The notes below the pieces were generated by a model that was not told where the DNA came from, searched no databases, and saw only the letters and a program-made list of their open reading frames with translations. Of a stretch of 64,000 nucleotides of DNA, positions 4,730 through 47,075 are shown piece by piece. Position 1 is the first letter of the stretch, and every line of letters begins with the position of its first letter. This DNA comes from Clostridiales bacterium (GTDB taxonomy: Bacteria > Bacillota > Clostridia > Christensenellales > UBA1242): contig CAKJZJ010000006.1 in assembly GCA_918292005.1 (NCBI GenBank), positions 1 to 64,000 on the forward strand. Direction: 5' to 3'. A program made the translations under genes and the position numbers.

Positions 4730-4734
4730 TGTGT

Positions 4735-4763: not shown

Positions 4764-4786
4764 TGAATATCGAAGTGGAGGTTTTT

Positions 4787-6184: not shown

Positions 6185-6305
6185 ATTTGTAACTATATAT
6201 ATTTATATATATATTTTTTTAGTAATTTTAATTTTTTGTGTGATAATAGATAGTAAGAATGCACATAAAAAATCCTGTAATTGCTATACAATGGAGAATG
6301 GAAAA

Positions 6306-21972: not shown

Positions 21973-22001
21973 TTGACTACTTTTGTCACATTATATATAA
22001 T
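21973..22001 (+). promoter_or_regulatory. promoter of the second giant gene
   Basis: TTGACT (21973-21978), 17 bases, TATAAT (21996-22001), close to consensus. It shows that the second giant gene is transcribed on its own. Confidence 0.82.
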
Positions 22002-28000: not shown

Positions 28001-31000
28001 TGAATGGCTACGTAATGCTATTGCTTCAAAAAATATATATAGCCTATCTGATACGGTAGGTATTGCAGTTTGGCCACCATTCTTACAGAAGGGTATGTTG
28101 GTATTTGAGTCTAGCAATGAAGATATTGCTCAGATTATTATTGTTAATGGTCAATTATCTTTGCAAGTCAAGGGTGTTGGCTCTGTTACATTCTTAGTTT
28201 ATTCTGCATATAATGTCGATAATAAAGCCACATTTACTATTAATATTGTAGATGCTATAGAAGGTTTTGATTTCTATACAGACATGACATATGATCAAAA
28301 AGTAAATGCTGAGAATATTACTATTATTAAAAATGAGTCAACCAATCAGATTATATATGTCGACTTCAATGGTAAATTTGATCATGGTAATGTATATCTA
28401 AATAGTTACAATAAAGTAGACTTATTATTAGATCATCAGGACAATTATGGTATTAGATATTTTGTCATGACCGATAATTCTATACTATTTACAGGCAATA
28501 CTACATGTACTAGTCTTAGAATTAATGGAAAATCATTCTCTAGGATGTATCTGTCTGGTTATGGCAAAGAGGGTTACGCTTTGTATGTTGATGGCAAAGA
28601 TTCTATTGCTATTACCGGTCTAGAAAAACAATCTAATATCAAATTGTTGGCAGTTCCATATATTATCCATAGTAATGGTAATATCACATTCATGTTTGAC
28701 TTCTCAACAAATAGGCCACAGGATGCCATATCTAATAATAGATTGAGTAGGGCAAAAATCCTGACTATAAATGTAATTGATGGTACATATGCTATCAAAA
28801 CTACAGAGTCTCAGGATATTACTCCTTTGAATACAGCCAATATTGATGTTTTGGTTAGCACAGATGATGCTACCAATATGTTGTTCTTTAAAGTTCAATA
28901 TGCAGATCCAAATTTAGGCACTAGTGCTAGAAATGTAACTGTTTATAGCGATATCAATAAAATTAATCCTGCTCAAACTAGTCATAGTCAAGTTACTATT
29001 TATGAAGCAGATGTTAATGGTTATGTAAATGCTGTAGTGGGTAATACATACTATTTTGATGGTATGGAGATGCTACTATATAGTGTAGAAAAATTAGATG
29101 CCAATAATGAAGTAACAAATATTGACGATAATATAAAGAGTATTGTATATCACTTTGCAATAGGTGTAGGTGAGTCTCATCTATTTGATGAAGATCTAGT
29201 AAAAGCATATAATTTTGAATTCTGTACTTTGTCAAAAGTGAATTCTGATACAATCAATTATTTGAAAGCAACGACGTGTGTTAATGTACTACGCCAAGAA
29301 GTAAATAGTTCGATAATAAAGCATTATTCCGGTGTTGATCAATATGTAGAAAATATTGATGCTGTTTACGAGAATACAGATTATTTTGAGTCTAGAACAT
29401 TGGTAGCAGGATATCCAGGAATGCTTCAGGTAAATCTATTCCCACAATATTCTAGTATAGACTATGTGGAATTTACTTCTAACGAAATTAATGGTTATTA
29501 TATTGCTATGGAGCAATTAGTAGCAGTGTATGATTCGTCCAATACATATTTTGATGGATACTACAGAGCATACACAGATACTAGAGAAATCATCAATAAT
29601 GGTAGGGGTATTAGGGTTAAAAAGACTAGTACCATGTATACACAAAATGGTCAGGATATTTACAGTTATAATGGCACATTCTACATTAGAACTGTAGTTC
29701 CTACCATCACATTGGGTACTACCGAATTTACTATTACATATAAGTCTTACTTTAAAGGGGTAGTACAGCCTGAGGGCTCTGGTGAAATTAAAATTATTGT
29801 TGTAAAAAATCCTGCAGTTACTCTTGATGTTGTAGATGATGATAATAAAACCACCAAGGTTGGTGTAGCAACATTTGGTGAGACCATGCAATTAAAATAT
29901 GCTGCTGAGAGAGAAATTGAATGGAATATTAGTGCAAAAGACTCAAATTTTGAAATAGATAATGTCCTTCGTGAATTGAGTCCGGTTATTGTAGATGGTA
30001 ATACTGCTACAATATCTATCAAGAGCATTTCAGAGATAGGTGGTAATTATGCACAGTATGTAGGCAAGGTTGTTACAATCTCTGCTACAGTATCTATGGT
30101 TGTTCAGGGAAGGCTATACTATACTACAGCATCTGTAGATTTAAAACTGGCAGTTATCAAAATTAATGCTATAAAAGTTAATAATGTTGATGAGAATACA
30201 CTCAATTTTGTAGGTGTATACAATCAAACATATGATTTAAAGGTTACAGTGGTAGCCACGTTTGACCATGCGTACGATACTAGTACGAATGGTAGTATTT
30301 CTAGTGCTATTACTGCTCTAGAATACGATTTGTCTACAAGTAATCGTGTATTTAGATGGGTCTCGGGAGATAATGAATACACCTTAGAGACTAAACCATA
30401 TGTCGATTTCTTGATTGGCAAACATAATGATTACTTTACAATCAAAAATAATAAGAAAAATCCACATAGTAAATTTAATGCTTATGCTGAATTTGGACAT
30501 TCAATCATATCTAGTACTGGTAAAAGTTATGAGAAATTTGGTTTGTTCTTAAATCCTTCGACAGTTAATAGCAACATGATTGTTCGTTCTAAAAATCAAC
30601 GTTTTGGTATGCAATTCTCTAGACTATCCAATGAAGAATATCCAGAACCTATATATACTGTTGACGAACTTATAAACATGGAGCAGGGCGGATATTATAT
30701 CTTACTTAATGATTTAACACTTACAGATTGGCGTCCATTAGATACTGCTATTGCATCACTAGATGGTAATGGTTATGTAATAACAATCGGTAGCTTCTTC
30801 GATACTAGGATACAAAAGGCTCAAGAAGATGCCGCAGCTGCTGCAAGTGATGAAGAAGAACAAAATAAAGAATCAGAGATAACCATTGGCTTGTTCTCTA
30901 CAATTTCTGAGAATACTACTATCAAAAACTTAATTATTGAAGTTTTGGCAAGTAGGGAAAATGAAACGAAAGATCAACAAATAACTATAAACTACGATAA

Positions 31001-34000
31001 TGTAACCAATAGAGTGGCCGATCATGACATTCCAATCGCTGATTACGAGAGTGTAAGATTTGGACTGCTTGCTGGTGAGAATAATGGTATTGTTACCAAT
31101 GTTGTCGTTACCAATAATGCTAATGCACAGAGAATAGAACGTAAGAGTATTCTAGCTAGTAGCAATGTGATAGATAATAGTGTCCTAAATAAAGAGACTA
31201 ATAGAAGAACTACAACAATATATCTCAATTATGGTTCTATTACATCTACAGCTGTGAAAAATAGAATTGGTGGATTGGTTGGTGTAAATAATGGATTTAT
31301 ATCAAATAGTTCAGTCAATAATATTACTATCAAAGGTCTAGATTGTGTAGCAGGTTTCGTAGCAGAGAATACCAATACCATCAGTAGTAGTTACTTTGAT
31401 GGTGGACACGTTTATGCACAGGTTTCTGCAGAGAATACTACTACCCTTGGTGCTAGTGCATTTGTATTCAATAATACTGGTAAGATTTATTATAGTTATG
31501 CTACAGGTAGGGCAGTTAATCAGTCCAATAACTTTGATGTTAGCAATATCGACGATTTCTTCGGTACGAGTTATACATTCAAAGATCCTATTAGAAATCT
31601 AGGAAGTGCTGTATATAGTGAGAGTGGAAATGTTACTGGATTTGTCTTTACCAATTCGGGCGTAATAGAAGATAGTTATTCTAATATATTGTTGTTTGGT
31701 AATAATGTTGCAGGATTTGTTCATACAAATAGTGGCGTTATTAGCAATGTATATACTCTATCATCTATTCGTGAATCAAATAGTAATAACCATCCATTCA
31801 TATCACTTTCTAATAATAACTTGACGACCAATAATAGTGGTACTATCAAGAGTGCATATTATCTGAGAGTGGACGATAAAGATATCAATTCTACATTTAA
31901 TAAGACGGGTCATTCAGATAGATACAATATTGATGAGACTCTACAGATAGCATTGCCTATTAGCGTTGCGAAATTAAGTAGTTATAGCACATTTGAATCG
32001 TTTGCATTTAATGCGAATAATGATAATCCTAATGATGATGTGCTACCAGCTATTGATGAAGTAGTGAGATCGGTATGGTTCTATCCACATGCCGAAGTTA
32101 CCGATACAGGTTATTTCAGAAATAAACAATACAATAAAGCTGCTCCAGAATTGGTATCGGCCAACTTAAATAATCTGAGCCTAAAATACTATACTTCGGA
32201 TAATGTGTTCAGTGTACAAGAAAGTGTATATAGTGGATTACTGCAGACTATTCCTCAGATCAAGATATTTAGAAATGATATTGATGTGGACATCACAGAA
32301 GTAAGTCCAGCAAGGCTATGTGCTTTGACCGATAAAGACAGAGATAGTGTTTTATTGGATATGAGAGCATACATTGATTTGAGTGAAGTTAATTCCAATA
32401 TTAAGGCACGTTATGCAAATCTGAATAGTACTATTCTGGATGAGTCAGTTATTACACTGTATAATGTCAATGTATATGTATCAGAAGACGAATACAATAC
32501 GTTGAATGATGATGTTAATGGTATTAGTATCAATGCAATTAAAGATATTCAATCACGAATTTTGAATATGGGTATTGGTGAAAATTATGCTTACATTAGA
32601 GTGATCTATACATTAGGTGATGCTCCTGATCAGATTAATAATTATGAGTATTCTTCTGTTTTAGAGAATTCTAGGGGTATTAGTATTGAATATGGCAATA
32701 GTGTATTAAATCCATACTTAGTAAAAACTTCTAGAGATATTAATGTATTTATTAGACAGACTGATGATGAGGGAAGTAGTTTATTAGAAGATGGCAATAA
32801 TGCAAACTATATCTCAAAGAGTTATTTAAGACTCATTAATGATGTTTCTTACAATAAAACAGATTTAACAGCCAAAACATTTAATATTATATTTACTGGT
32901 TTGTTAGATGGTAATGGCATGCAGATATCCAATCTAAGAATTAATGCTAGTACAACCATATCTTCTAATGCCATAAATAAACAAATCGCATCCAATTATA
33001 GCGAAGATGATTATTACGAATTAAGCGGTCGCGAATATGAAATTTCTGATAATCATGTAACTATAAATGGAGTAACATATACTGTATCTAATGGCAAAGT
33101 GCTGAATGGTACAGTCGAATTTGATGAAAAATATATAATAAAAGACAATAAAGTTCAACTAATTAGAAGTGCTACATCTCTGGGCTTGTTCGCTAAAGTA
33201 ACATCTGGTGGTACGGTAAAAAATATAAAAGTTGGCGTATCCGAAGTTTATGGTACTGGTGTAAATTTTGTCGGTGCGATAGCCGGTCAAGCTATAGATG
33301 CTAGACTATTTAATATTACACTTACTCAAGAGAGTAATGATACGGTAATCTATGGTTACAATATCGTTGGTGGTGTAGTTGGTAGGATTTCTGGTAGATC
33401 TAATGTAGTTAATGTTACATCTGAATTATCAGTTATCTCCAATTATCATAGTGAATATAATTTATTTGATCCAAAGACTAATATTAACCTTAATTTAGGT
33501 GAAAATGGTGTAAATGGTTACAATATGTACATTGAGCCATCTAGGATTGGTGACGTATACACTCCATCTAATTTCAATGTTGTATCAATAGCCGGTGGTA
33601 TTGCAGGCGTAATTGATTTGACTAGGAGTAGTGATGGATCTGAGAATACCGATGGTACAGATGGCTATGGACTAGGGAAAATTAGAAATACTACTGTACA
33701 GAATGGCTTTGAAATTGTGGGAGAGATAGTTGGTGGTCTGTATGGTTATATAGGTCATGATACTGTTGTTTCTCTAGGTAAAGTATTTGTTGATAGTAAT
33801 TCTAAATTAAATGCTACGAGAGTAGCAGGTGGTATTGCTGGTGTACTTAGACACGAGATTGCACGTAGTTATGTTAGCAATATAGAGTCTACACAGGCAG
33901 AAATTGACCAGTCTATTTCACAAATAGTTACCAATACCGAGCAGATATATGGTGACAAAATTAATAGTTCTGGTGCGCATGAGTTCTATGCTGGCAATCC

Positions 34001-37000
34001 ATACTTTATAGGTGGTCTGGTTGGTATTAATCTAGCTGGTACCATTAGAGATTCATATAATAGAGTGGACGTTATCAATCTAAATTCCTGCTATGCTGGT
34101 GGATTGATAGGTCTGAATTATGGTGGAACACTTCACTCTGTTTATACTACTGCAGACGTTTATGCATTCTATGGTATAGGTGGTATTGTTGGTTTGGCTT
34201 CTAAATTGGTGGATGCTGGTACATATAATTCGATTGTGTCCAATGAACAGAATCCTAAAGATCTGGATTACAAATTTATGCTATCCAATTATGATCAAGT
34301 ATATGGTACCTTTACAGACAATGGCAATCTTACATTAAATGTTGAGGGTGTTGTGGCAATGAACCTATGGACACTAGAACATTTGAATACCCGTAGACAT
34401 CATATCAATATAAACGTAGCTAATTGTTATATAGGAACGATTGTAGGTAAATCTACTATTGGGACGCCTATTACTACTAGTGAAGATAGAATATTTGTGG
34501 AGACCATATATTCTATAGTGACATATACATTTGATTCGATTAATGCATATTCATCTAGTTCTTCCAAAAATACATTCAATGAGTTTAGATTAGTTCCAGA
34601 TATTGGTAATATTGCACCTTATGAATGGTGGAATTATGATGGAAGTTTTGTAGTGGACAGTAATACCGGTGAGTATAATACAATACAAGTGGATACTAGT
34701 ATCACCATTACTCAGAATGCAAGTAAAAAATATGAGATAGAGTCTGGCACATATACGTATAGTGGAAATATTGTAGAGTACAAATACGATTCCAATGGAA
34801 ATTCAGATGCAAAAATAACAATTACTAGAAATGCTCATTTCTCAAGAATTAGAGAGTATTCTTCTGTAGTTTCTTTGAATGAGATTTTGAGTAGAATTTA
34901 CATTGCAGACTCTGCTAAAAATATAGATAGTAGATTGGGTGCAAGCAATGTAAACGACTTAGAGAATTGTGAAAGTGGCGAAATTCACTTTGATATTGGT
35001 GAAAACAAAACATTGAATGATGGTAAATATACCACACAACTCATCTATGATACTAATCATTGGGATGAATCTGTTTGGATGGGAATAGGTGTAAATCCAT
35101 CCACACATAGCAAAACTGATGATTATATATTACCATTACATGCTATTAGACTTGATGATAGTGATGTTAATGTTTACACTTATGATGATTTATTAAGGGT
35201 TAATCATTTCCCTAATAGAACATATAAACTTATGAATGATATTGAAGTTCCTGATGGTGCAAAACCTTTGGCTTCCACAGGTAATCCATTCACAGGTAAG
35301 TTGGTTTCTAATGTTACTAATAATGATCATCCTGAGAAATACAAAATTATAATGCACTCTATGTCATCAGGTACATCTCTTGGATTATTCGCAGCAGTGA
35401 AGGGTGCTACGTTTAGCAATTTTGAATTAATTGTTACTCAGCCTCTCACTATCACCACTAGTATTAATGGTGCGACAGCTGCAGGTGCATTATTCGGTTA
35501 TGGTTATTCTAAAGGTTATACACCAGTAGTTATTGATAATGTCAAAGTTACTTACTCAAAAACTAGTCATTTGTGTGAATTTAATAATGGATCTTCTGTA
35601 AATGATGATGGAAAGATTGTGACTGCTGGTAATAATTATTCAGCATCGTATATAGGTGGTCTGGGTGGATATGTAGCATCTGTAATTATGACAAATGTTA
35701 CAGTAGAAGGTACAGATATCTCTGTTGCTGGATATACAGATAATGACCACAATTACAATATGTTTATAGGTGGATTGTTTGGACATGCTGGTATAGGTGG
35801 AGACATATCCACTCCATCAGATGATGTAAATATTATCAATCCTACTATCACACTAGGTGGGGTAGAATTTGCAGCAGGTGGTTATGATACATTGGCTGTA
35901 GGTGGTGCATTCGGTAGAGTTGTTAGCACCAATACAGTTAATAGCAACAATATAAGCAAGTTTAAATTACAATATCCTGTAGTATCAGTTGATATTCGCG
36001 CTCATGAGAATATTCATACTCATAAATCTGAATTTGTAAACTTTGATACCATTGGTATTGGTGCCCTTGCTGGTATTATAGAGGGCTTGCCTGCTGGCAT
36101 TACATTCCAGATTGCAAGTAATAGTGGCGAAAAACTAATCACGAAAAATGGTGTTAATAGTGGTAGTGTCACAGTTAATAATGGTGGTGTATATGCTAGC
36201 TCTACGACTAGTGGACTAGGCAATATTAGTGTAGGCGGTGTATTTGGTCAGATTGGATCTAGAGATAAAGGTAATGTTAGTTTAAGTAATATCCAATACG
36301 ATTTGGCCAGTGTTACATACAATCACAGCAATTCTGCACACCATTTAGATAGTACTATGATTAATAGCGACGTGAATGTAGGTACATTCGCAGGATCAAT
36401 AATATCTTGTAATAGTTCCATATCCAATGTTATTGGTGAAACGATATTGAATTGGACTGCTAGCGAAGCAGATAGTGTTACCCTTAATATTGGTGGTGCG
36501 GTAGGTAAAGTGCTTTCTGGTACTCTAGACCATGTGATTATTTCGCAAAATATTAGTTCGTCTGCTCAAGTGAATTTAGGCGAAAAAACTACAGCTAATA
36601 TTGGTGGTTTGATTGGTAAATATTTGGGTGGTCTTGTAGGAAGAAGTGGTTATAATGGTACAATATCATTAGTTCTTGACAATAATCACAACCTTAATGC
36701 CGAATTAAATGTTGGTGGTATTGCTGGATATGTAAATAATTACGATGCAATATCTCAGGTGTTTGCTTCGGGTAAAATTATAGTTGATGATAATACAAAT
36801 AATTTCGAAGATATTGGTATATCCAATGTCGGTGGTCTTGTTGGATGTGTTTATGATAATGTACATATTAATGATTCATACTCTAGCAATACTATTGATA
36901 TGCTCAATAAATATGGTGCTGTATCTGGTATAATTGGCAGAGTTATAATTAGTAATGCAAATGCAATTATAAATAATGTGAATGATAATATATCTATTAC

Positions 37001-40000
37001 AGACACATATACTATATCCAATATCATTCTCACTCGTACTGCACATCATATGTCGGGAGTGGGTGGTATTGTAGGTATGGCAGTATCTACGGATGGCTAT
37101 GATGTAGAGTCTTATATTATCCAGGATACAGCATACTATCTAGCAGAATTTGTAGTAGATAATAATTCCATTGGTACAGGTTTATCTGTAGAGCAGATGT
37201 TATTCAGTGGTGAGTCATTTATGGCCAATACAAGTTGTTGGTCAGTTGCTGCTAATAAATATCCAATACTATCTTGGATGAATGATGGTTATGGTGAGTA
37301 TATTGATTCTAGATTACAGCCTGAGACTACCGGTGGTATACAGGCAGGTAAAGCATATATACTCACATCACCTATGACTCTAGGCACACTCAATAATAAT
37401 GATATTTATTACAATTTAGGTAGTGCACCTGATGTTAATACTTTACAAATTAATACAATCGATAAATACTCTAGAGTATATGGTATTAGAGTGGGTAATG
37501 CTTCATCCTCATCTGGTATCATTGGCACCAATAATGGTAAAGTAACAGCGACGCAGATAAGTTCAATTACAGCTGGTAATTATATCGCAACCAATAATGG
37601 TATTGATATCAATCCTATGATTTCTTCAGTTGCTAGTGGGGCAAAAGTATATGGTACTCTTGATGGTTATGCTGTCTATGCTAGTGTTAATGGCTTATCT
37701 GGCGTATTTACAGGTAATGGCACTGGTATGGTTATGTTATCTGTTGTAAAAGGTAATGTGAATGCCCTTAATGGTTTGCAAGTTAGGGATAGTTATATCG
37801 ATAATGGTACACAGATTCAATATTATAATAATGCTGGTACCAAACTGGCTCTAATGAGTTATGAAGATGCGACTAATGTATTCAATTTTGATACAGGATT
37901 TGATTTCTATAATGATTGGATAATACTTCCATGTTCTGATACGGATTCGAACGCCGAAAAAGTTAATCGTCACTTTGGTAGGGTATTCCTTAGATGGGAA
38001 TTGAAATTATCTATATCTGAGCTTGGTCATTGGTATAGTGAAGATATAGATATCTATAGTGATAATCAGACAGCATACAAAAATTATGTTTGGAATAATT
38101 ATATTAATGCTAAAGATGTCTTTAATAGTAGTAATATTGTCATAAGAGATAATAGTGTTACTATTAAAACTCCAGCTGGACTTGCGTATTTTGCAAAAGC
38201 AGTTAACCATGGCGAATATAAAGATAAAAATATCACTGTTAGAATATCGCTAGAATCTAGTCAAACATCATTAGATATGGGCAATAAATTATTTACACCT
38301 ATAGGTGGTGCGTTATTGCTTGGACATTACAATAATAATTACTTTGCTGGTACATTTAGTAATGCTAATATCACAAATCTTCTAATACTTACCAATTATA
38401 ATGCAGGATTGTTTGGTACTACTGCTGGTTCGTTTGGAAATATTACTATTTCAAATTCACTTATTCTTACTACTAGTGCATCTTTGGGTGCTCTAGCAGG
38501 TGTAGTCGATCGTGCCAATGGATCAACCAATGGTATTACTGTATCTCATACAGCATTATTACATACTATGCAAAATACAGAAATGGCCTATGTTGGTGGC
38601 GTAATTGGTGAATTAAAATTATCTACATACAACTTATATAATATATCCTTAAGTTCCGGAGATGCTGGTCTACATATTCATAATGGTACTAATGTTGGTG
38701 GTGCTATAGGATATATCACAGACTCCAATGTTGATATTGGTAAAATTGCCAATACTGTAGATGTTTTTGGTCAAGATGCTGTTGGTGGTATTGTAGGATA
38801 TATAGATGATGGATGCCAGGGTACATCTAGTGTCAGCATTCATGTTGCAGAGACTTATAGTTATGCTTCTATTTCATCTCAGTCTTATGCGGGTGGTTTG
38901 ATTGGCTACTGTGCATCGCAAATACAATTCTCTGTATGTTACAATAATAGTGCAGTTGATGGTGAATATTCTGCGGGATTTGTTGGTAAATTTGATAGTG
39001 ATTATATAGCGTTCAATGATTGTTATGTTACTAGAGGTGATGTAACCGATTATAATGGTGATACTAATGCTAAAAACTATAGAAATGAAGCTTACACAAT
39101 CACGAATATGAATGATAGCAATATTACGGGTACTCATATATCTTCATTTGCGAATGTCGAGAATGTACATGCCATAGTATCATTCCATCAGGCATATGCA
39201 TCATTTGCTAGACTCGTTGCAAGCAATTCTGGTAGTCAGATTATTAATCTAGTCAATCAGGGTAGTGTAAGTTATTACAAAACATTCCTATTTGATATAT
39301 CTGTTAGTAACGATGTAGAAATAAATGATAATAATCTAAATAGAATCAATCACTATAAATTGTCAGAGACTAACAATAATATTTTTGACGGTTGGTATTC
39401 TAGATGGACACGTATTTCACAGAAAAACAATAATTATCCATGCTTATTATTTGGCTCAGATGTATTCTGGAGTAGTGATATCGCTCCTAGATTGGTATCC
39501 AATTCTGTCTATGAAGTAAATAGTGTTGAACAACTAGCATATATAGCCGAACAAGTTAATTCCGGTAGGGATTTCTATGCTGGTAAAACAATCAGAGTAG
39601 TGGCTGATGAATTAGATTTTCAGAAAAAATTGTGGAATCCTATAGGTATCAATGAAATTAATAGTTTCCAGGGTACTATGGAATTTATTGGGACTGGTAA
39701 TGGTGTTACAATTATCAATCTGACTACCAATGGTTATTATGATACGAGTGCGACTACTCTTGATCCATTATGGGACAATGTAGGCCTATTCGGTTATACA
39801 AAAAATGCAAAAATTAGTGGTAGGAGTATTACTTTTGAGACATATCAATTAACAGATGAAGAAGGATCTCATATTCTTGGTGCTGGGAATAATATTGCCG
39901 CTTTGATTGGTTGTGCTACCAATACCAATATCGATTTCACTGGTGATATTACAAATAATTTGAGTGTTCAAGGTTGTGGCTCCAATATTGGTGGTATTAT

Positions 40001-43000
40001 AGGTTTGTACCAGATAACTGGTAGTTCTTCTAGTTCTTATACATTCAAATTAACTGGTGGTATGACTAATAATGGTAGAATATCTGGAGATTTGACAGGT
40101 AAAACCATGGATAGTAATTATGTTGCTGGCGTTATTGGTAAGATAGATACATCTAGATATGCTAATTCTGTGACAATAAAAGCAGGTACTCTAGCTAATA
40201 ATGGTGAAGTGTGTCAAGTTTATGGCTATTCTGCAGGTGTAATATCATATATAGATAGTTCTAGCAATGGACTTGTAGTAGAAGTTGATAATATTAGTAG
40301 TGTCTCGAATATTGTTGGTAGAGATGGTTGGAATTACATTGGTGGTTTGATTGCTTATGCAAATGCAAATCTAGTAATTGGTCATGCAGAGTTAAATAAT
40401 AATAATAGTGAAAAAATTTATATTTCTGGTAGTGATAAAAATACTAGAGAGAATATTGGTGCATTACTGGGTTATGCAAAGAGTGTAACAATTAGTAGCG
40501 TAACATTAGACTCCAATACTGTTGAAATCGCTCCTAGGGGAAAAATTTCTGACGCACAAAACAATGCCAATATTGTTAATCAAGAAGTTGCTATTGGTGG
40601 ATTATTTGGTAGAGTAGAGAATGACCTTACATTTAATCTAAGTAGTGACTTTACAGTAGATAAAATTAGATTTAATTGGATTACAGACGAAGTGGCTGCT
40701 ACTAATAAAATTGACTGGAATAATGTTGGTGGTATAGTAGGTAAAGTCGGCAGACTCAGAATCATAGTAACGGGTAGTGATTCGAGAACAATTACCATAT
40801 CCGATAATAATGTCAAGGGTATGGGATATTTGGGTGGTTTTGCTGGATATGTTGGAGAATATCAACAGAGCAACCTTGCAGCAATTACTCTTAATAATGT
40901 AAATGTTACAGAACTACCTGCAGGTAACAAAAACGATTATGCAGGATCTACAACTAACGAATTATATTTCACTAGTGTCGGTGGTGTGTTTGGTTACATT
41001 TCGAAATCTTTCAAACCTGTTTCAACGACTATTCCACCAGTAGAAATTTACAATATTACAACTAATGGTGGTACTATCACTGGTGTAACCAAATACATTG
41101 GTGGTGTATTCGGTAGATTAAATAATGCTCAATTGTATAATGTTTACAATAATAATACTGTCTTAGGTGACGTCGTATCTGCCCAATTTGTTGGTGGTGT
41201 TGCTGGTAGAGTAGGTAGAACGGCAGCATTAGATGTAAATAATGGTGTAATAATTGAAGAAAGTTATAAAAATAGATCGTATCTAACTAGCATTTATAAT
41301 ACCAAGACTGTTACTGGTAGTGTCCGTGTTGGTGGATTGTTCGGTGCTCTATATAATGCAGATGTGGAGAGATATAGTGTTTATGATGTATCTGAGCCTG
41401 AATCTCTAAGGATTGGTTCGGTAGATGGTGTAAATCATGCTAATTATATGGTTGGTGGTGTTATTGGTCATGCATCATACGTATACATTGATAATACTTC
41501 GACACTAAGTGATAATAGTAAATACTCATTCTATGGTAGTCTGTATGGTAATAATCTAGTTGCCGGTATTATTGCTTATGCTCAATATACCAATATTAGA
41601 AGTGCTAGAGTAAATACTGTAGACTTTAAGGTAACAGGAGAAAACACTGATGATTCGCTTGTATTTAGTGATGGATTACCTAGTGCAGGTGGTGTAGTTG
41701 CTTATGCGGTTGGTCTAGATACCATCAATTACATAGATAATATTGATGTGATAGTAACCGAAGTTACACAAATTGCTTACGATACTCCATTTGTTAGATT
41801 TGGTGGTGTCGCTGGTGCAACCGATCATATGATTATCAATGAAGTTTCTGCTAATATTGATGTATCAATTCAGTCGGGAATCTCTCAGGATAATATTAGG
41901 TCCATTGCATTTACTATGCAGAATACATCCAAAAATAGTAACTGGTATGTGAACCATTATGTATTCTATAGTGGTATTTCATTTATATCTGGTGACGAGG
42001 GTAGCAATATTACACTTGCTATGATATATGATTATCAATCCAGTCTAGATGCAGAGCCATTAGATGCAACATTTATCAATATGTCTAATACTGCAGTTTA
42101 TTATAAATCTGGCAATGGTGCAGGTGAGGGCAAGGTAATGTACTATGACCATGGTCTTGCTCAAGGTTTGAAACCAATTGACGACGATATTGATGTATTA
42201 GGTATATTCAATGAGTCTGCTCTTTGGACAGTATCATATGCTAATAGCAAATATTCTTTGACATTTGCTAGTGACATGCAACAACGTGCTAATCGTCTAG
42301 AAATAGCCGATTCTGCAAATAAAAAGGCCGGTTATGATTATGTCTATGTAGTAGATGATAATATTATTGGTGTAAATGATGATAATAGATTCTTGTACTT
42401 ATATTCTGCTATCAATAAACGTTATGATGTTGAAGGGATAGAACAAACAAAAATTTTAATTGATGTAAAAACTAATATCAATAATACCAAAAATACTACA
42501 GATGGATCATTATGGTATCAGAGTCCAATAGGTACATATCATTATCCTATAGGCAAAATTACCATCAAAGGTAATGGTCATTCTATCAGAATGGGTGCTA
42601 AACTTATTCCAGGTAGTAGATTTGGTTCCGATAGTGTTTTATATGATAATTATGGCTTATTTGGTCAGGTTAATGAAAGTTTGAATATTACTGGTTTGAC
42701 GATTAATGGTTCGTCTGCTCTTACTATTGGAGATACCCATGTAACAACATCGGATGTGCGTGATGTACAAAAATCTCTAGGTATTATATCTAGTAGACTT
42801 ACTGGACAAGTAGGTTTAACCAATGTAACTATTAATGCTAATATTGGTATCAGTGATTCCATGTACACTGCGGGAATTGCTGGCTATGTAACAGATAGTG
42901 CTATTACCATGAATGGTGTTACAGTCAATAGTAATATATTTGATGAAGATAACATTGGTACCAATGATAATATATACACAGCTGGATTATTTGCTTATCT

Positions 43001-46000
43001 AAAGGAAAATGTAGATATTGTTTTGATTAGTAATGAATCAAAATATACAGGGACTCTACATGGTCGAAATTTAGCAGCTGGTATTGTGAACCATATGGAT
43101 AAGAGTATCAGTATCGAGGCAAAAAATAATAGCGGAGATACTATTGAAGATAGATTACTTATCAATGATGGTCAAATATATGCTCACGTAGGTGTATCAT
43201 TAACGTCACTTGCTGCTGGTATTGCAGCACAAGTTGTAGGACCTGACATTCTGATTTCCAATGTTCAGAATGGTGAAAATGCCACTATTAATGCAGTAAC
43301 ATCTGCTGGTGTGGTAGGTGTAATAGTAGGTAATCAGTTGGAAATTAGACATAGTACAGTACTTGGCACGATAGGTTCGGCAGATAATACTCAACATGCG
43401 AGTGGCTTTGTAAGTCGCGTATCGTTGACTACAGGTACAGGTGCGGTTGAATTGGTATTTGACGAATGTATCAATCACTCTGCTATCTATTCTCAAGATG
43501 CAGTTGTCGGTGGATTTGTATCATATTCAAGTGGTTTGGGTTCGATTAATTATACTTTCAATAATTGTCTAAATAAATCGAATATTGATAAACTCGCTAT
43601 TGAAGATTCAATCGTAGGTGGTCTAGTTGGTAAACTATCAAATGGCGATATGATCACTATTACGGATTCGCAGTCGGTAGGCAGTCTAAAAGCACAGACT
43701 GTAGGTAGCCTTATAGGTTATGCTCTTATTAGAGACAATATGCCTAATATTTACATTAGTAATGAGATGGCGGAAGATGATTATACCATTGAAGGTGCTA
43801 TTGCGGGTGGACTGATTGGTTGTATAAAGATGTTGACTCCAACTGCCAATCCTAATACACATCAAAATCAATTAGTTATAGATCCATTATTTGATGATGG
43901 TGCAGTGATTGCAACATCGTTTGCTACGACATCAGAGCATATGAGCGTGGTTGGTACAGAATGTGCCGGTGGCATAGTTGGTAAATTTATTGGAAGTACT
44001 GGTGCCACATTTGCATTTACTGATATGACTAATAATGCTACAGTAACATCAAATACTTCTGCAGGTGGACTAGTAGGATCTTCTAGTGTGGTACAATTAT
44101 CATTTACTAATTGTTGTAATACTGGTACAATATCTGCCGACGACAATGTTGGTGGTATAATAGGACATACAATCCAAGATGATATAGTCGAGATTTCATT
44201 CGAGAATACTACAGTATCGGGTAATGTAACAATTACAGATCCAGACGGCTATGCTGGTGGTGTCATTGGTTATACTGACAATGTAAAAATTAGTGGTAAT
44301 GTAGTAGTTTCTGCAGAAATTAATGCTCCTAAGAATGTAGGCGGTGTTGTTGGTTTCGGTGTAAATGATTTGATTTCTATTGAAGCATTAATAACTAGTG
44401 AATTGTCAGGTGAATTTGTTGGTGGCTTGGTTGGTATTGCTGGACCTATGTCAATATCTGAGTCATCTGTATCAGATGCTATGATTAGTGCTGATGCAGA
44501 TGTTGGTTATGCTGGTGGAGCAATTGGTATGTATCATAATAATTTAGGATATGAACAGAATTTCACAGTCGAAAATACTACAATCTCCAATTGCTTTATA
44601 ACAGGTAAATATGTGGCTGGTTTGGTAGGAAAATTGAGTGGTGATACAACTATGATAATTATTACAAACAATACTGTTAGCGATATTACACTCACATCTA
44701 CCAATGGTAATGGTTATGCTGGTGGATTAATAGCCAAATTAGTTGATCAGTATATTTGCAATATTAGGGGGAATACCATTCACAATATTATCTTTATTGC
44801 CACAGACAATACTACGGAAACATTCAAGACCTACTATGGTGTGAATGATTCTATTGTAAATATATTCTGGTACACAGATACGCTTAATTATGTTACAGCA
44901 AATCCTGCTACAGGTGATTCTGGTTATTCCTATCATACATATGCTACATACGGTGGTGGTACAGAGACCAGATCATTATCGTATGGTAAATTTACGGCTT
45001 ATGGATTCGTAATAGGTAATAATCAGAATTATGATGCTAGCAATAATTTGGATACATCATACACCGTCGATATGGACTCTGTAATAAACAATGTACCTAT
45101 CAGTACGGATACGTATTATACTATCAGTATCCCAGGCGAAACGGTCTACAATGCTCCAGCTGTTGACTTGGAACTAGTGTCTAATAGTCCTGAGTACAAT
45201 CTAAATGTATTACAACAAAATTGGTGGTCTACAATATCACAAAGTTCTGCTTCGGCTAAAATGTTATATCGTATAACCAAAGTAGCTAATGACTACTCAC
45301 CAATAGATGTTATTTGTGCCAATCTTCAGGAACAAAGCCCATCAAAGAATGTTGGATTTATGGCAGGTGTTACCGAATATTCAGGCAGCTCACCTACATA
45401 CAATTCCAGTGCTTCTTCGATGCCTTTGTCTTACAGTAGCACAGGTATTAGCAATACACATGTAGAACTTAATGGTAGTTCGGCAGAGATTTATGGTAAA
45501 ATTCTTTCTATCTATGACTCCAATGGTAAAACATTGAGTCAAGATAGAAAGGATATAACCAAATGGGCAATGTACACATTTGTCGGTATTGATGGGAATA
45601 ATAGAAATTCGTCAAATTCAAATTTCGAGTATGAATCGCAACATGTCAACTTCTACACCAGTGACGTGTCTAAATGTAATAATTCGTATGGTGGCATTAG
45701 ATATTATGATTGGAGTGGTACGGGCATTAGATACTATTATATCAACGACATAATAAATGCAGTAAGAAATGGTGCAAAGGGTGGAATATCCAATAAAGAT
45801 CAAGCAATAGCAGCTAATGCATATTGGACTACAGATTGCTGTGGCTTTATTAGAATGGTTTACTTCGCACTAGGTTGTGGTGTTGATGATGGCAATGATA
45901 GCAATACTCTTCATGGTAATGTGGTTAGAAATTATCCAAATGGTAATATTCGCAGATCGATAAATGAAGTCAATGGTAATTTTTATGACAACATTTTACC

Positions 46001-47045
46001 AGGGGATGTAATATATTCAGTTGGATATGATGTTAATCACATTCTCATGTTTACGTACTATGAGAATGGTATTTACCATTTCGTTGACCAGTCCAATCGA
46101 GATAAAGAAGCCACTCTTGAAACGGACAATAATAATACTAAATACATAAAGATCGTAAATGATTCAAGGCATTATTACAATTACACTTCATCTTCAGATA
46201 TGTATTCATCTAGAAATCCTAATAATGTAATGGGTAAGAGCAATAGGGAGTTCTACCCAGATTTCTCAAGTAAGTGTAAATATATCTACGATCAGATAGA
46301 TAGTAGGTATATGGATCTCAGTGAAGAACGTCAGAGAATACTGGAATTCATGATATATACATTTAGCAATATTTCTGCTACTGAGAATGATGGTAGACGT
46401 ACTAAATCCAATTCTAATTACAAATACAATGGCTATGATAACGACATAGATGTAGATGGTGATGGCGAAATTGACTATAGTATATTCAATCTATACTACG
46501 ATGATAATACTGACACATCGGGCAAAACCATTCTAGTAGAAGATGGGATACATTATTATATGGATGGTAGCAAGAATAAATATTGGTATATAAATGATGT
46601 CGTAGATCATATTCGCGAAGGTGTAAGATTGCAAGCAAGTCAAAGTTTGTCTTATTCTAAGGCTGTTGGACTGAATGCCAATTGGTTGACAGATTGTTCT
46701 GGATTTATTAGAATAGCTTACTATTACCTAGGATATGGACTCGTTCTGCGTCCATTCCCAGATACTCAGGGTGTATATGATACTTGTGATAATATAGCAA
46801 ATATTCTACCAGGTGATGTAATATTTGTTAATAGGCATGGTACAGAAGGACAGGGGTCTCACATACTGACATTTACATACTTTGATGGAGAATACTATCA
46901 TGTGATGGATGAGAGTCATCTAGATAGAAAGATGGAACTCCGTACTGATGAAAAGGGACATAAGTATTTAAGTTTCTTGTCAGGGGATACTAGGAAGTAT
47001 TATGATTTCTCGACTCCAGAGCAACTTATGTCATATGCCAAATAA
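22080..47045 (+). CDS. giant GLUG/beta-helix lipoprotein with C-terminal NlpC/P60-like tandem (8,321 residues)
   Basis: This single 25-kb open frame starts with the lipoprotein signal LTLIIVMFVSLVGFFAC. Residues about 25-1080 are Ig-like. A first GLUG/beta-helix block opens near 1085 (PFEVDSYEDLLRIG...YVLTQNIYL). Ig-like blocks follow (about 1640-2850), including a Big2-type unit with FESSNEDIAQI. Further helix blocks open near 2853, 3537, 4357, 5353, 5807 and 6770, each with a similar set-up segment, a GLFG turn and then GG(V/I/L)(V/I)G repeats. The C-terminus (from about 7805) carries two papain-like NlpC/P60-type domains with Cys7920/His7987 and Cys8206/His8261. The N-terminal lipid would hold it at the membrane while the helix blocks reach through the wall. 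An adhesin, wall-remodelling or predatory role is inference. Codon use and base composition match the neighbours, so recent transfer is not evident. Confidence 0.94.
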   Translation: MKNWKKYLTLIIVMFVSLVGFFACKSKDVYAGLKIEIVGTSDNITEESDGVYAITLAENNEDNVFTLRVKVSGVNDSVSSSLDFSVDDPSLVYTVNSKQVGNNTTEASFRVNNSSANLSNSTIVHISSEGNKSISFQLKINIPIRDFVVRDNIIPVVRGEQTQLALSENYIDFYPSNTTYKDLKLTAIPISGMGGINDDDIERINDLIAQSGNSTLLIPEGTAVQSFILNLESKYNENISHSAIVNVLDRPDVTKFSLTQQKLHEEDYTLLETNNNENLLTLVINSDAYYNYHHAKVQLNYDGNANVFTNPVDRNYYKYDTDGHIVEFGSPTYSVYIKNHMTNNSVYVLDENGIMSKTSPNKIGALYNDGSIFGTNIVTAQKLDQASTFEFFQASRDGEYEVTFIIDYAGYEGMFRATEYTMKVQTKTFPSSIKLFRSKSELNDVQNVAEAEDLHDKQLTLYSNGLGTEIVVGVWGDSGYLSRQPVAVTVDDDNVDGVELLCGGKILSGDDNICNSGDLISVRKVGETNNTVTIKFTSTIYKDVVREYVFDVVKENTIITANNTEITLDPGAFNEHVNKTIQLVADEYLSVTGLPLVDGVIDYSVMTITVEGGINNKYISVPQYDEDVGDWIVNVYNSIGKTRITYRTPNGIEVTKELSIYYPISGDNAQFVKMQITNFENVRMPGKKFKFEATSTIQSTTETANKTKLLSGATYNYYYLLGDGADSEYVYTSLDGILSVARPTSSNENVITIDNASRSITVKGYSPDDVLLQFAYTTLYGAERVTIYICISVQIEKMIDSISVSKYLIDDMYDADTILPYAKDSDGVRYYDKYCVKELSVSFNPITATTSPTIEWIPLNSDGVPMVKPRNEDYYTFGTTGVKVYVDSTSINGESISFHVNGIPTDNKQTSFAMKMLVMVTQSFISSSGVKINNYVLSQTTDIVVHLAGRVKDISTKLFNNSITFDVRDMEFDATNEIYISNNESTFEYELTSKDYNNDAPVLDILNKDIAVYSSSDILHTIYNDNRINLKYLNSSADYISYPVYKVYVAANDSLTRELDGNFTIRDIYEYYSIVSVITVKIANGKSVPFEVDSYEDLLRIGKDEESMSANYVLTQNIYLKNHTWTPLGGYNSVYTGPFEGTLDGKFELTEGVYRQFGIYNLKINIDMSSVLPSDDQLREFNYGFFAEIGENGRVVNLNISDIYIRVTGFDSFQNGVYDNVGVIAGTNKGTIQNCTIDDGSVQYIDGKQKIQRRLNGVVVEERKDQFALNSSSSGEMRGIFYNTASMDTSSTITRAFVGGLVGKNESNILSSKAVTTIIARNIGSNKYLYVGGMVGFNIGSVENHSSFVPSSDNDSYDVVSIINPHMITSLTGAYDMYGGAIGINAGDIIGVTARTFVFGTGYVGGLVGYNVGRVESNITIPTLIGHKVTGGLIGKSSYGEDSILPNTLSGSNVIKSNKVQFIDFQDSDDRYSYFNTAIKGYGAIGGLIGEYYTRYNVNGQVFVFSENIDGEDTGVFAYNSVASYYNAPVVTATYSRDSQAGYYYGDIVSDSTSAIIGGLIGRADNGVLVVHSYVDVNISGDCTIGGIIGSAGGIVSLFNTVFNGSIVYRNDSTIKAGAFIGSVNDTFNTYGLDTLQQVIKLASGESVDSFFIYRDAADANPNTNNVSVVITDDSKYVNGLVISGAGETFTFGNFVYSYAIMRYRKDTVDVINGSVSSENGYINEYISNPNKIITPNNVATYVTIRLQDENNIIYGSEAIVTNYLAYNSFVVDGYASTDPINNANVLFGTNYANKIRIYIPGDHGAGVYIDVSTGGFTAHRTNVSSEYIGVYQSDENTESGYADGDRDELINYLKFAHTQINSGLPLPFAEGRVYYSDSKDFVDLIINLPPTTITIGGAESILDHSRTNDNVWTANEIGAHDNYVDLTPVENTIYFYGLDYNSGAFSYEYDNDGNVIIDFNNDGMYSYLDITYSEWLRNAIASKNIYSLSDTVGIAVWPPFLQKGMLVFESSNEDIAQIIIVNGQLSLQVKGVGSVTFLVYSAYNVDNKATFTINIVDAIEGFDFYTDMTYDQKVNAENITIIKNESTNQIIYVDFNGKFDHGNVYLNSYNKVDLLLDHQDNYGIRYFVMTDNSILFTGNTTCTSLRINGKSFSRMYLSGYGKEGYALYVDGKDSIAITGLEKQSNIKLLAVPYIIHSNGNITFMFDFSTNRPQDAISNNRLSRAKILTINVIDGTYAIKTTESQDITPLNTANIDVLVSTDDATNMLFFKVQYADPNLGTSARNVTVYSDINKINPAQTSHSQVTIYEADVNGYVNAVVGNTYYFDGMEMLLYSVEKLDANNEVTNIDDNIKSIVYHFAIGVGESHLFDEDLVKAYNFEFCTLSKVNSDTINYLKATTCVNVLRQEVNSSIIKHYSGVDQYVENIDAVYENTDYFESRTLVAGYPGMLQVNLFPQYSSIDYVEFTSNEINGYYIAMEQLVAVYDSSNTYFDGYYRAYTDTREIINNGRGIRVKKTSTMYTQNGQDIYSYNGTFYIRTVVPTITLGTTEFTITYKSYFKGVVQPEGSGEIKIIVVKNPAVTLDVVDDDNKTTKVGVATFGETMQLKYAAEREIEWNISAKDSNFEIDNVLRELSPVIVDGNTATISIKSISEIGGNYAQYVGKVVTISATVSMVVQGRLYYTTASVDLKLAVIKINAIKVNNVDENTLNFVGVYNQTYDLKVTVVATFDHAYDTSTNGSISSAITALEYDLSTSNRVFRWVSGDNEYTLETKPYVDFLIGKHNDYFTIKNNKKNPHSKFNAYAEFGHSIISSTGKSYEKFGLFLNPSTVNSNMIVRSKNQRFGMQFSRLSNEEYPEPIYTVDELINMEQGGYYILLNDLTLTDWRPLDTAIASLDGNGYVITIGSFFDTRIQKAQEDAAAAASDEEEQNKESEITIGLFSTISENTTIKNLIIEVLASRENETKDQQITINYDNVTNRVADHDIPIADYESVRFGLLAGENNGIVTNVVVTNNANAQRIERKSILASSNVIDNSVLNKETNRRTTTIYLNYGSITSTAVKNRIGGLVGVNNGFISNSSVNNITIKGLDCVAGFVAENTNTISSSYFDGGHVYAQVSAENTTTLGASAFVFNNTGKIYYSYATGRAVNQSNNFDVSNIDDFFGTSYTFKDPIRNLGSAVYSESGNVTGFVFTNSGVIEDSYSNILLFGNNVAGFVHTNSGVISNVYTLSSIRESNSNNHPFISLSNNNLTTNNSGTIKSAYYLRVDDKDINSTFNKTGHSDRYNIDETLQIALPISVAKLSSYSTFESFAFNANNDNPNDDVLPAIDEVVRSVWFYPHAEVTDTGYFRNKQYNKAAPELVSANLNNLSLKYYTSDNVFSVQESVYSGLLQTIPQIKIFRNDIDVDITEVSPARLCALTDKDRDSVLLDMRAYIDLSEVNSNIKARYANLNSTILDESVITLYNVNVYVSEDEYNTLNDDVNGISINAIKDIQSRILNMGIGENYAYIRVIYTLGDAPDQINNYEYSSVLENSRGISIEYGNSVLNPYLVKTSRDINVFIRQTDDEGSSLLEDGNNANYISKSYLRLINDVSYNKTDLTAKTFNIIFTGLLDGNGMQISNLRINASTTISSNAINKQIASNYSEDDYYELSGREYEISDNHVTINGVTYTVSNGKVLNGTVEFDEKYIIKDNKVQLIRSATSLGLFAKVTSGGTVKNIKVGVSEVYGTGVNFVGAIAGQAIDARLFNITLTQESNDTVIYGYNIVGGVVGRISGRSNVVNVTSELSVISNYHSEYNLFDPKTNINLNLGENGVNGYNMYIEPSRIGDVYTPSNFNVVSIAGGIAGVIDLTRSSDGSENTDGTDGYGLGKIRNTTVQNGFEIVGEIVGGLYGYIGHDTVVSLGKVFVDSNSKLNATRVAGGIAGVLRHEIARSYVSNIESTQAEIDQSISQIVTNTEQIYGDKINSSGAHEFYAGNPYFIGGLVGINLAGTIRDSYNRVDVINLNSCYAGGLIGLNYGGTLHSVYTTADVYAFYGIGGIVGLASKLVDAGTYNSIVSNEQNPKDLDYKFMLSNYDQVYGTFTDNGNLTLNVEGVVAMNLWTLEHLNTRRHHININVANCYIGTIVGKSTIGTPITTSEDRIFVETIYSIVTYTFDSINAYSSSSSKNTFNEFRLVPDIGNIAPYEWWNYDGSFVVDSNTGEYNTIQVDTSITITQNASKKYEIESGTYTYSGNIVEYKYDSNGNSDAKITITRNAHFSRIREYSSVVSLNEILSRIYIADSAKNIDSRLGASNVNDLENCESGEIHFDIGENKTLNDGKYTTQLIYDTNHWDESVWMGIGVNPSTHSKTDDYILPLHAIRLDDSDVNVYTYDDLLRVNHFPNRTYKLMNDIEVPDGAKPLASTGNPFTGKLVSNVTNNDHPEKYKIIMHSMSSGTSLGLFAAVKGATFSNFELIVTQPLTITTSINGATAAGALFGYGYSKGYTPVVIDNVKVTYSKTSHLCEFNNGSSVNDDGKIVTAGNNYSASYIGGLGGYVASVIMTNVTVEGTDISVAGYTDNDHNYNMFIGGLFGHAGIGGDISTPSDDVNIINPTITLGGVEFAAGGYDTLAVGGAFGRVVSTNTVNSNNISKFKLQYPVVSVDIRAHENIHTHKSEFVNFDTIGIGALAGIIEGLPAGITFQIASNSGEKLITKNGVNSGSVTVNNGGVYASSTTSGLGNISVGGVFGQIGSRDKGNVSLSNIQYDLASVTYNHSNSAHHLDSTMINSDVNVGTFAGSIISCNSSISNVIGETILNWTASEADSVTLNIGGAVGKVLSGTLDHVIISQNISSSAQVNLGEKTTANIGGLIGKYLGGLVGRSGYNGTISLVLDNNHNLNAELNVGGIAGYVNNYDAISQVFASGKIIVDDNTNNFEDIGISNVGGLVGCVYDNVHINDSYSSNTIDMLNKYGAVSGIIGRVIISNANAIINNVNDNISITDTYTISNIILTRTAHHMSGVGGIVGMAVSTDGYDVESYIIQDTAYYLAEFVVDNNSIGTGLSVEQMLFSGESFMANTSCWSVAANKYPILSWMNDGYGEYIDSRLQPETTGGIQAGKAYILTSPMTLGTLNNNDIYYNLGSAPDVNTLQINTIDKYSRVYGIRVGNASSSSGIIGTNNGKVTATQISSITAGNYIATNNGIDINPMISSVASGAKVYGTLDGYAVYASVNGLSGVFTGNGTGMVMLSVVKGNVNALNGLQVRDSYIDNGTQIQYYNNAGTKLALMSYEDATNVFNFDTGFDFYNDWIILPCSDTDSNAEKVNRHFGRVFLRWELKLSISELGHWYSEDIDIYSDNQTAYKNYVWNNYINAKDVFNSSNIVIRDNSVTIKTPAGLAYFAKAVNHGEYKDKNITVRISLESSQTSLDMGNKLFTPIGGALLLGHYNNNYFAGTFSNANITNLLILTNYNAGLFGTTAGSFGNITISNSLILTTSASLGALAGVVDRANGSTNGITVSHTALLHTMQNTEMAYVGGVIGELKLSTYNLYNISLSSGDAGLHIHNGTNVGGAIGYITDSNVDIGKIANTVDVFGQDAVGGIVGYIDDGCQGTSSVSIHVAETYSYASISSQSYAGGLIGYCASQIQFSVCYNNSAVDGEYSAGFVGKFDSDYIAFNDCYVTRGDVTDYNGDTNAKNYRNEAYTITNMNDSNITGTHISSFANVENVHAIVSFHQAYASFARLVASNSGSQIINLVNQGSVSYYKTFLFDISVSNDVEINDNNLNRINHYKLSETNNNIFDGWYSRWTRISQKNNNYPCLLFGSDVFWSSDIAPRLVSNSVYEVNSVEQLAYIAEQVNSGRDFYAGKTIRVVADELDFQKKLWNPIGINEINSFQGTMEFIGTGNGVTIINLTTNGYYDTSATTLDPLWDNVGLFGYTKNAKISGRSITFETYQLTDEEGSHILGAGNNIAALIGCATNTNIDFTGDITNNLSVQGCGSNIGGIIGLYQITGSSSSSYTFKLTGGMTNNGRISGDLTGKTMDSNYVAGVIGKIDTSRYANSVTIKAGTLANNGEVCQVYGYSAGVISYIDSSSNGLVVEVDNISSVSNIVGRDGWNYIGGLIAYANANLVIGHAELNNNNSEKIYISGSDKNTRENIGALLGYAKSVTISSVTLDSNTVEIAPRGKISDAQNNANIVNQEVAIGGLFGRVENDLTFNLSSDFTVDKIRFNWITDEVAATNKIDWNNVGGIVGKVGRLRIIVTGSDSRTITISDNNVKGMGYLGGFAGYVGEYQQSNLAAITLNNVNVTELPAGNKNDYAGSTTNELYFTSVGGVFGYISKSFKPVSTTIPPVEIYNITTNGGTITGVTKYIGGVFGRLNNAQLYNVYNNNTVLGDVVSAQFVGGVAGRVGRTAALDVNNGVIIEESYKNRSYLTSIYNTKTVTGSVRVGGLFGALYNADVERYSVYDVSEPESLRIGSVDGVNHANYMVGGVIGHASYVYIDNTSTLSDNSKYSFYGSLYGNNLVAGIIAYAQYTNIRSARVNTVDFKVTGENTDDSLVFSDGLPSAGGVVAYAVGLDTINYIDNIDVIVTEVTQIAYDTPFVRFGGVAGATDHMIINEVSANIDVSIQSGISQDNIRSIAFTMQNTSKNSNWYVNHYVFYSGISFISGDEGSNITLAMIYDYQSSLDAEPLDATFINMSNTAVYYKSGNGAGEGKVMYYDHGLAQGLKPIDDDIDVLGIFNESALWTVSYANSKYSLTFASDMQQRANRLEIADSANKKAGYDYVYVVDDNIIGVNDDNRFLYLYSAINKRYDVEGIEQTKILIDVKTNINNTKNTTDGSLWYQSPIGTYHYPIGKITIKGNGHSIRMGAKLIPGSRFGSDSVLYDNYGLFGQVNESLNITGLTINGSSALTIGDTHVTTSDVRDVQKSLGIISSRLTGQVGLTNVTINANIGISDSMYTAGIAGYVTDSAITMNGVTVNSNIFDEDNIGTNDNIYTAGLFAYLKENVDIVLISNESKYTGTLHGRNLAAGIVNHMDKSISIEAKNNSGDTIEDRLLINDGQIYAHVGVSLTSLAAGIAAQVVGPDILISNVQNGENATINAVTSAGVVGVIVGNQLEIRHSTVLGTIGSADNTQHASGFVSRVSLTTGTGAVELVFDECINHSAIYSQDAVVGGFVSYSSGLGSINYTFNNCLNKSNIDKLAIEDSIVGGLVGKLSNGDMITITDSQSVGSLKAQTVGSLIGYALIRDNMPNIYISNEMAEDDYTIEGAIAGGLIGCIKMLTPTANPNTHQNQLVIDPLFDDGAVIATSFATTSEHMSVVGTECAGGIVGKFIGSTGATFAFTDMTNNATVTSNTSAGGLVGSSSVVQLSFTNCCNTGTISADDNVGGIIGHTIQDDIVEISFENTTVSGNVTITDPDGYAGGVIGYTDNVKISGNVVVSAEINAPKNVGGVVGFGVNDLISIEALITSELSGEFVGGLVGIAGPMSISESSVSDAMISADADVGYAGGAIGMYHNNLGYEQNFTVENTTISNCFITGKYVAGLVGKLSGDTTMIIITNNTVSDITLTSTNGNGYAGGLIAKLVDQYICNIRGNTIHNIIFIATDNTTETFKTYYGVNDSIVNIFWYTDTLNYVTANPATGDSGYSYHTYATYGGGTETRSLSYGKFTAYGFVIGNNQNYDASNNLDTSYTVDMDSVINNVPISTDTYYTISIPGETVYNAPAVDLELVSNSPEYNLNVLQQNWWSTISQSSASAKMLYRITKVANDYSPIDVICANLQEQSPSKNVGFMAGVTEYSGSSPTYNSSASSMPLSYSSTGISNTHVELNGSSAEIYGKILSIYDSNGKTLSQDRKDITKWAMYTFVGIDGNNRNSSNSNFEYESQHVNFYTSDVSKCNNSYGGIRYYDWSGTGIRYYYINDIINAVRNGAKGGISNKDQAIAANAYWTTDCCGFIRMVYFALGCGVDDGNDSNTLHGNVVRNYPNGNIRRSINEVNGNFYDNILPGDVIYSVGYDVNHILMFTYYENGIYHFVDQSNRDKEATLETDNNNTKYIKIVNDSRHYYNYTSSSDMYSSRNPNNVMGKSNREFYPDFSSKCKYIYDQIDSRYMDLSEERQRILEFMIYTFSNISATENDGRRTKSNSNYKYNGYDNDIDVDGDGEIDYSIFNLYYDDNTDTSGKTILVEDGIHYYMDGSKNKYWYINDVVDHIREGVRLQASQSLSYSKAVGLNANWLTDCSGFIRIAYYYLGYGLVLRPFPDTQGVYDTCDNIANILPGDVIFVNRHGTEGQGSHILTFTYFDGEYYHVMDESHLDRKMELRTDEKGHKYLSFLSGDTRKYYDFSTPEQLMSYAK
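45500..47042 (+). other. tandem NlpC/P60-like peptidase domains at the end of the second giant protein
   Basis: Two related units follow each other. Each has YINDVV-type and NA(Y/N)W segments, then TDC(C/S)GFIR with the catalytic Cys (7920 and 8206), then LPGDVI, then a His in NHILMF or SHILTF (7987 and 8261), then a YH-x-(V/M)-D-type element. DCSGF, GDV and H-I are the signature blocks of NlpC/P60 and related CHAP-type amidases, which cut cell-wall peptides. The first copy has CC instead of CS after the Asp. Both triads look usable; activity is not shown. Confidence 0.8.
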
Positions 47046-47075
47046 GAAAAAAGAAGGCAACTGCCTTCTTTTTTT
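47046..47075 (+). terminator. terminator of the second giant gene
   Basis: AAAGAAGGC-AACT-GCCTTCTTT with a long T-run directly after the stop codon. Confidence 0.92.

Follow-up and report, generated by a model that had tools for sequence, protein, structure and literature searches.

The 64,000 nt window (the whole stretch of DNA that was analysed) raises the question of why a bacterium would carry two putative wall-cutting domains at the far end of an 8,321 aa lipoprotein, and of whose wall they might cut. The gene for this lipoprotein, giant 2, is the longest in the window and lies between a second giant gene and rpoB. The features of the locus are:

4733..5368, + strand: M23 endopeptidase-type membrane protein, upstream of the giant pair
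6156..21845, + strand: giant 1, listed at 5,229 aa, with weak similarity to giant 2 and no NlpC-type motif
21973..22001, + strand: promoter-like site upstream of giant 2 (TTGACT-17-TATAAT, 11 of 12), of a kind no more frequent in the stretch around giant 2 than in shuffles
22080..47045, + strand: giant 2, lipoprotein gene, 8,321 aa, with signal peptide and lipobox C24, a long region, putative beta-helix-like blocks and a C-terminal NlpC/P60 pair
22080..22151, + strand: signal peptide and lipobox of giant 2, C24 and A23 identical in 6/6 congeneric giants compared
43575..44771, + strand: last regular GGxxG repeat block of giant 2, possibly beta-helix-like (low-confidence model), period about 30 aa, preceding the NlpC tip
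45471..46259, + strand: NlpC/P60-like unit 1, residues 7798-8060, with C7920, H7987, D8003 and the CCGF variant
46311..47042, + strand: NlpC/P60-like unit 2, residues 8078-8321, with C8206, H8261, D8277 and the canonical DCSGF
47046..47075, + strand: terminator-like hairpin, directly 3' of the giant 2 stop codon
47299..51051, + strand: rpoB, downstream neighbour of giant 2

The true start of giant 1 is probably downstream of the listed TTG, and the similarity between the two giants of the source genome is weak (best E 8.7e-25). Each giant is followed by a terminator-like hairpin, and in a genome of 1.2 Mb the pair (6156-47045, before rpoB) takes up about 40 kb. There is no immunity gene adjoining the NlpC tip at the locus, the hairpin and then rpoB being downstream. 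An M23-like ORF is also present upstream of the giant pair in five congeners, as judged by eye. Elsewhere in the window, a 330 aa protein (55334-56326) with an N-terminal hydrophobic stretch has no Pfam match at E <= 0.001, and similar ORFs were seen by eye after rpoC in G002, G005, G006, and G009. A 349 aa protein on the opposite strand (3321-4370, -), with no Pfam match over the cut-off, contains VVLTFDN, which we take to be reminiscent of polysaccharide deacetylases.

Orthologues of giant 2, of 8,022-8,749 aa, are present in five congeners. A core of about 5,000 aa (about residues 1850-6880) is conserved among them at 29-37% identity, and the last ~1,400 residues diverge. In all five of the six giants for which the contig extends far enough, rpoB follows the giant (source, G002, G005, G006, G009); the contig of G012 ends before rpoB, and G012 is absent from the rpoB tree. 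Conservation of the core, the invariance of Cys24 in 6/6 giants, and the 5/5 linkage to rpoB together support giant 2 as a real gene. Elsewhere in the family, rpoB also follows the giant in G020, G035, and G028; in these three and in G002, G005, G006, and G009 the gene was identified from its sequence and aligned. It is not directly downstream of the other giants whose ends were fetched, for example in congeners G004, G007, and G010. Genes other than rpoB follow the fetched giants of G004 and G007 (L095, G004:C2:81382-82263, -; L096, G007:C12:79556-80260, +) and include ORFs ending in L.N.EEE.LL...YQNK.AYA, perhaps reminiscent of wall amidases.

Using a 1,600-residue piece of the core (E <= 1e-5), matches were found in 27 of 60 relatives: 12/13 in the genus, own genome included, 15/23 in the rest of the family, and 0/24 in other families of the order, which is 27 of the 36 family genomes. 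As in the source genome, a second giant precedes the giant 2 orthologue in the five congeners, ranging from 4,615 aa (G002, interrupted) to 5,409 aa. The interruption in G002 (G002:C7:219732-235598; L054, L055) is an in-frame stop that splits the giant 1 frame into one piece of 4,615 aa and another of about 672 aa; it is either genuine or the result of misassembly.

The initial annotation placed the enzyme pair about 8,000 residues from the lipid anchor, and 7,896 residues do separate the lipobox Cys from the first catalytic Cys. Giant 2 has the features of a bacterial lipoprotein, with a signal peptide ending in the lipobox Cys and the lipoprotein signal peptidase LspA encoded in the genome (E 1.7e-32). 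The residue at -3 of the lipobox is Phe in giant 2, which is atypical. As the genome has LspA and two penicillin-binding transpeptidase matches, a lipid anchor and a cell wall of its own are to be expected.

The long region between this anchor and the tip has no Pfam match over the cut-off. It was described as containing several helix blocks; these are at best beta-helix-like. There are 67 GGxxG-type motifs in giant 2, with a median spacing of 37, whereas 200 shuffles gave 5.1 on average and never more than 12; this pattern has the look of beta-helical GLUG-type proteins. It is mainly from the GGxxG pattern and from GLUG matches on 6/29 giant tips of the family (best E 6.7e-17) that a beta-helix might at best be proposed. 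The structure model of one GGxxG stalk block, made from a single sequence, is poor (pLDDT 44.1), and the top Foldseek hits with this model are mostly parallel beta-helix by name, none being significant (best E 0.31). Ig-like domains in the stalk are suggested by a single Big_13 match below the cut-off; this and the Invasin_D3, Glug, DUF1131, and fungal MCSS matches in the stalk were dropped, all being below the cut-off. The second half of a two-row stalk alignment is apparently misaligned and was excluded.

Two related units, each carrying TDC(C/S)GF, LPGDVI and (N/S)HI, are present in the last ~520 residues of giant 2, as originally reported. Unit 1 has TDCCGF at residue 7918 (45831), LPGDVI at 7973, and NHI with H7987, and unit 2 has TDCSGF at residue 8204 (46689), LPGDVI at 8243, and SHI with H8261. 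There are exactly two occurrences each of TDC[CS]GF, LPGDVI, and [NS]HIL.FTY across all six frames of the window, and these motifs were seen in 0, 2, and 0, respectively, of 2,000 residue shuffles of giant 2. The units share 30% identity over 256 columns (E 2.3e-32), with no family assignment for the first ~125 residues of each.

When the C-terminal 534 aa are searched against Pfam, the match is to NlpC/P60 (PF00877, 33.3 bits, E 5.2e-8, cut-off 23), which bears out the family originally named; the CHAP and transglutaminase-like families offered beside it fall away, neither profile matching the tip at E <= 1. Unit 2 scores 22.4 bits when cut out alone, just below the cut-off of 23, and 23.7 bits in the genome search, above it, while unit 1 alone is below it in both (15.2 and 16.7 bits). 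A profile of units 1 and 2 together with the single unit of G002, compared by hhalign with one built from 13 ordinary NlpC/P60 domains of the order, gives a probability of 93.3% (E 2.8e-7) over 60 columns spanning Cys to His; the 13 were chosen by the authors, one per genome, from 49 places, the rest being left out. The Cys, His, and Asp are invariant in unit 1, unit 2, the unit of G002, and a 283 aa protein of G227. The third residue of the catalytic series is Asp in both units and in 2/13 of the ordinary domains, most of which have His. These sequence comparisons support the assignment of the last ~520 residues as tandem NlpC/P60-type domains.

Other searches with the tip gave no NCBIfam match, a weak PHROGs match between unit 2 and a minor tail protein (E 0.0017), and a weak CARF match of unit 1 in PADLOC (E 0.0053). 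The MORN, EF-hand, Inovirus, and EFP matches were dropped as below the Pfam cut-off, and Elk-1, the sole match of the unit profile among PDB sequences (E 0.11), was taken as chance.

Built from a three-row alignment, the AlphaFold2 model of unit 2 has low confidence (mean pLDDT 49.7; block means of 45 around the Cys and 57 around the His). In this low-confidence model a helix begins at Cys129 and a strand at His184, and such starts are expected of a papain-like fold. Foldseek with the same model places the E. coli Gsp amidase, a Cys amidase, at all of ranks 1-8, although these matches are non-significant (E 0.03-0.1, best 0.032, none <= 0.001; TM-score 0.27-0.30, rmsd 7-8).

The stalk is widespread in the family, while the enzyme at its end is rare. 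With the unit profile (E <= 0.001), 4 of 309 family genomes match: the source, with two units on its giant, G002, with one unit on its giant, G227, and G009. Giants with an NlpC tip are found in the source and G002 only. The 283 aa protein of G227 (L066, 1075-1926) is separate, has an N-terminal hydrophobic stretch and the same TDC.GF, His, and DQS pattern, and from its sequence is a possible stand-alone relative of the tip. The match in G009 (L067, 754-1779) is a separate, ordinary NlpC protein of 341 aa, off the giant, with IIHAQ at the third position, and is the sole NlpC/P60 match in that genome. Wider draws gave 4/396 genomes in the order (A3 profile, E <= 0.001) and 3/391 in the class (E <= 1e-4), source included in each, the other matches being open frames of 247-1,278 aa. 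BLAST of the 534 aa tip against 60 relatives found only itself, the profile search finding more, and in a pattern scan of genome contigs 1 of 80 pattern matches was confirmed, this being the record of G002. Nothing credible was found among viral contigs, searched with the unit profile, or among phages and plasmids, searched with unit 2 only.

Four congeners with the same giant carry no NlpC tip on it, leaving NlpC on 2/6 of the giants compared. In a Pfam scan of 29 giant ends (up to 600 aa), NlpC/P60 was found on 2 (source and G002), GLUG on 6, and Listeria-Bacteroides repeats on 1; the remaining matches are single, weak, and without clear meaning, and there is no other convincing enzyme or toxin domain on these tips. 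In the six-row tree of the giants, G012 and G002 are sisters (100/100), and G012 aligns with G002 to G002 residue 8280, beyond which only G002 has the NlpC unit. This contrast within one genus means that the tip has been gained or lost there, in either direction. The ends of the giants diverge gradually as well as by an added unit. The rpoB and giant-core trees disagree on the source species, which is outside the other four by rpoB (83/94) and with G002 and G012 by the giant core (87/92).

The best explanation, to which a probability of roughly 0.55 is given, is that giant 2 is a putative outward-facing peptidoglycan hydrolase, anchored at the cell surface and borne on a very long stalk. It would be exported, lipidated at Cys24, and kept on the outer face of the membrane, where a long and largely beta-rich chain, with beta-helix-like blocks, would form the stalk. 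The last ~520 residues would be two cysteine hydrolase domains of NlpC/P60 type (Cys-His-Asp), putatively active. If extended, the stalk might measure roughly 100 nm or longer, as estimated from general beta-helix dimensions and not from a model. The monoderm wall is 20-40 nm thick, and an extended stalk would be longer than this, so the tip would be outside the wall of its own cell, although it could instead fold back or run within the wall. The target would most likely be the peptidoglycan of neighbours, or released wall fragments.

A less likely alternative is that the two NlpC units act on the wall of the producing cell itself, cutting it at division, for instance, or opening it for the stalk. 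NlpC/P60 enzymes are often autolysins, the lipid anchor holds the enzyme on the producing cell, and with rpoB downstream there is no adjoining immunity gene, all of which favours such a role. Against this, units 1 and 2 are the sole PF00877 matches (E <= 0.01) in the source genome, and only 3/36 family genomes, some of them incomplete, have any match, while the giants of four congeners are without the tip. The rarity of PF00877 and the tipless giants would suggest that wall passage and division are independent of the tip. The M23 protein is probably the likelier housekeeping enzyme, and the absence of PF00877 from 33/36 family genomes, with this M23-type protein nearby, suggests that the domain is unneeded for ordinary growth in the family and probably accessory in role. 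It is for this reason that outward action is preferred over self-remodelling.

It is unlikely that a papain-like fold has been reused here as a binding module or for another amidase or acyl-transfer job, such as linking the tip covalently to glycoprotein or wall peptides. The top fold-search match, weak as it is, is to Gsp amidase and not to a wall hydrolase, the third residue is Asp, unit 1 has CCGF, and no LysM or SH3 wall-binding domain was found in giant 2, which would all suit such reuse. The fact that the pair scores over the NLPC_P60 cut-off and retains Cys, His, and Asp in both units counts against such reuse, and against a pure binding role in particular. A polymorphic-toxin-like weapon, its tips exchanged for competition and its immunity genes elsewhere, would fit the conserved stalk with a variable end and has a precedent in the NlpC/P60 toxin domains with C, H, and D described in the available part of PMC3482391, but it is improbable given that the locus has no immunity gene, that NlpC/P60 is on only 2/29 tips with no other convincing enzyme domain, that no processing domain was found in giant 2, and that the ends also diverge gradually.

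If the outward-facing hydrolase is correct, a gut bacterium with a reduced genome gives over about 40 kb of its 1.2 Mb to a pair of giant surface proteins, one of which bears the genome's sole NlpC/P60 domains at its distal end, where wall cutting could be aimed outward with the enzyme still tethered. A broader and more doubtful proposal is that, in this family of small-genome gut Clostridia, paired lipoprotein stalks of ~5,000-9,000 residues may be a surface platform with ends that vary by species, here perhaps a wall-cutting lance, kept tethered, for killing neighbours or feeding on them by contact. The role of giant surface proteins in reduced genomes is poorly understood, according to the accessible part of PMC10066038. 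Close relatives that share this stalk, some bearing the enzyme and others lacking it, offer a natural comparison for that role.

The initial annotation was aware of no description of this architecture. A literature search, with most subscription papers and all bioRxiv preprints outside its scope, found no giant lipoprotein with an NlpC/P60 tip, and to that extent the claim stands; it does not extend to NlpC/P60 domains on long polymorphic toxins, which are published (PMC3482391). The giant ORFs of Omnitrophota are likewise very large, poorly conserved proteins of reduced genomes, but have many transmembrane helices or adhesin domains and belong to another phylum, with 'nlpc' unmentioned in the part of PMC10066038 available. 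The giant membrane proteins of Vampirococcus are linked to attachment in the available text of PMC8080830, and NlpC and GLUG are unmentioned in that of PMC11573180. The terms 'NlpC' and 'giant protein' both occur in PMC12419801. In Apilactobacillus kunkeei, from the accessible portion of PMC12863079, Giant1-5 are consecutive giant genes of 3,000-8,000 aa in a 1.5 Mb Gram-positive genome, and Giant1-4 have a beta-solenoid domain, both of which recall the present locus. Their shared C-terminal domain, unlike the tip of giant 2, resembles wall-binding SH3b, and the same portion does not mention 'nlpc', 'peptidase', or 'lipoprotein'.

The Tox-NLPC/P60 domains of polymorphic toxins, with C, H, and D, are predicted to degrade the walls of target cells and are similarly carried on long, often repeat-bearing proteins; in the part of PMC3482391 that was available these are from Bacteroidetes and delta-proteobacteria, with RHS repeats and T6SS, PVC, or TcdB/TcaC-type delivery. 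Giant 2, in contrast, is a lipoprotein of Clostridia with other repeats, two units, and no adjoining immunity gene. With the NlpC/P60 cysteine endopeptidases themselves (PF00877) the tip has in common DC(S/C)GF, GD(V/L)I, and His, arranged in that order, the pair scoring over the cut-off. The units of giant 2 differ from these in the Asp as third residue, the long unassigned N-terminal extension, the tandem arrangement, and the location at the end of an 8,321 aa lipoprotein. The enzyme family is a known one, but its position is unusual: it caps a giant, uncharacterised stalk found widely within one family.
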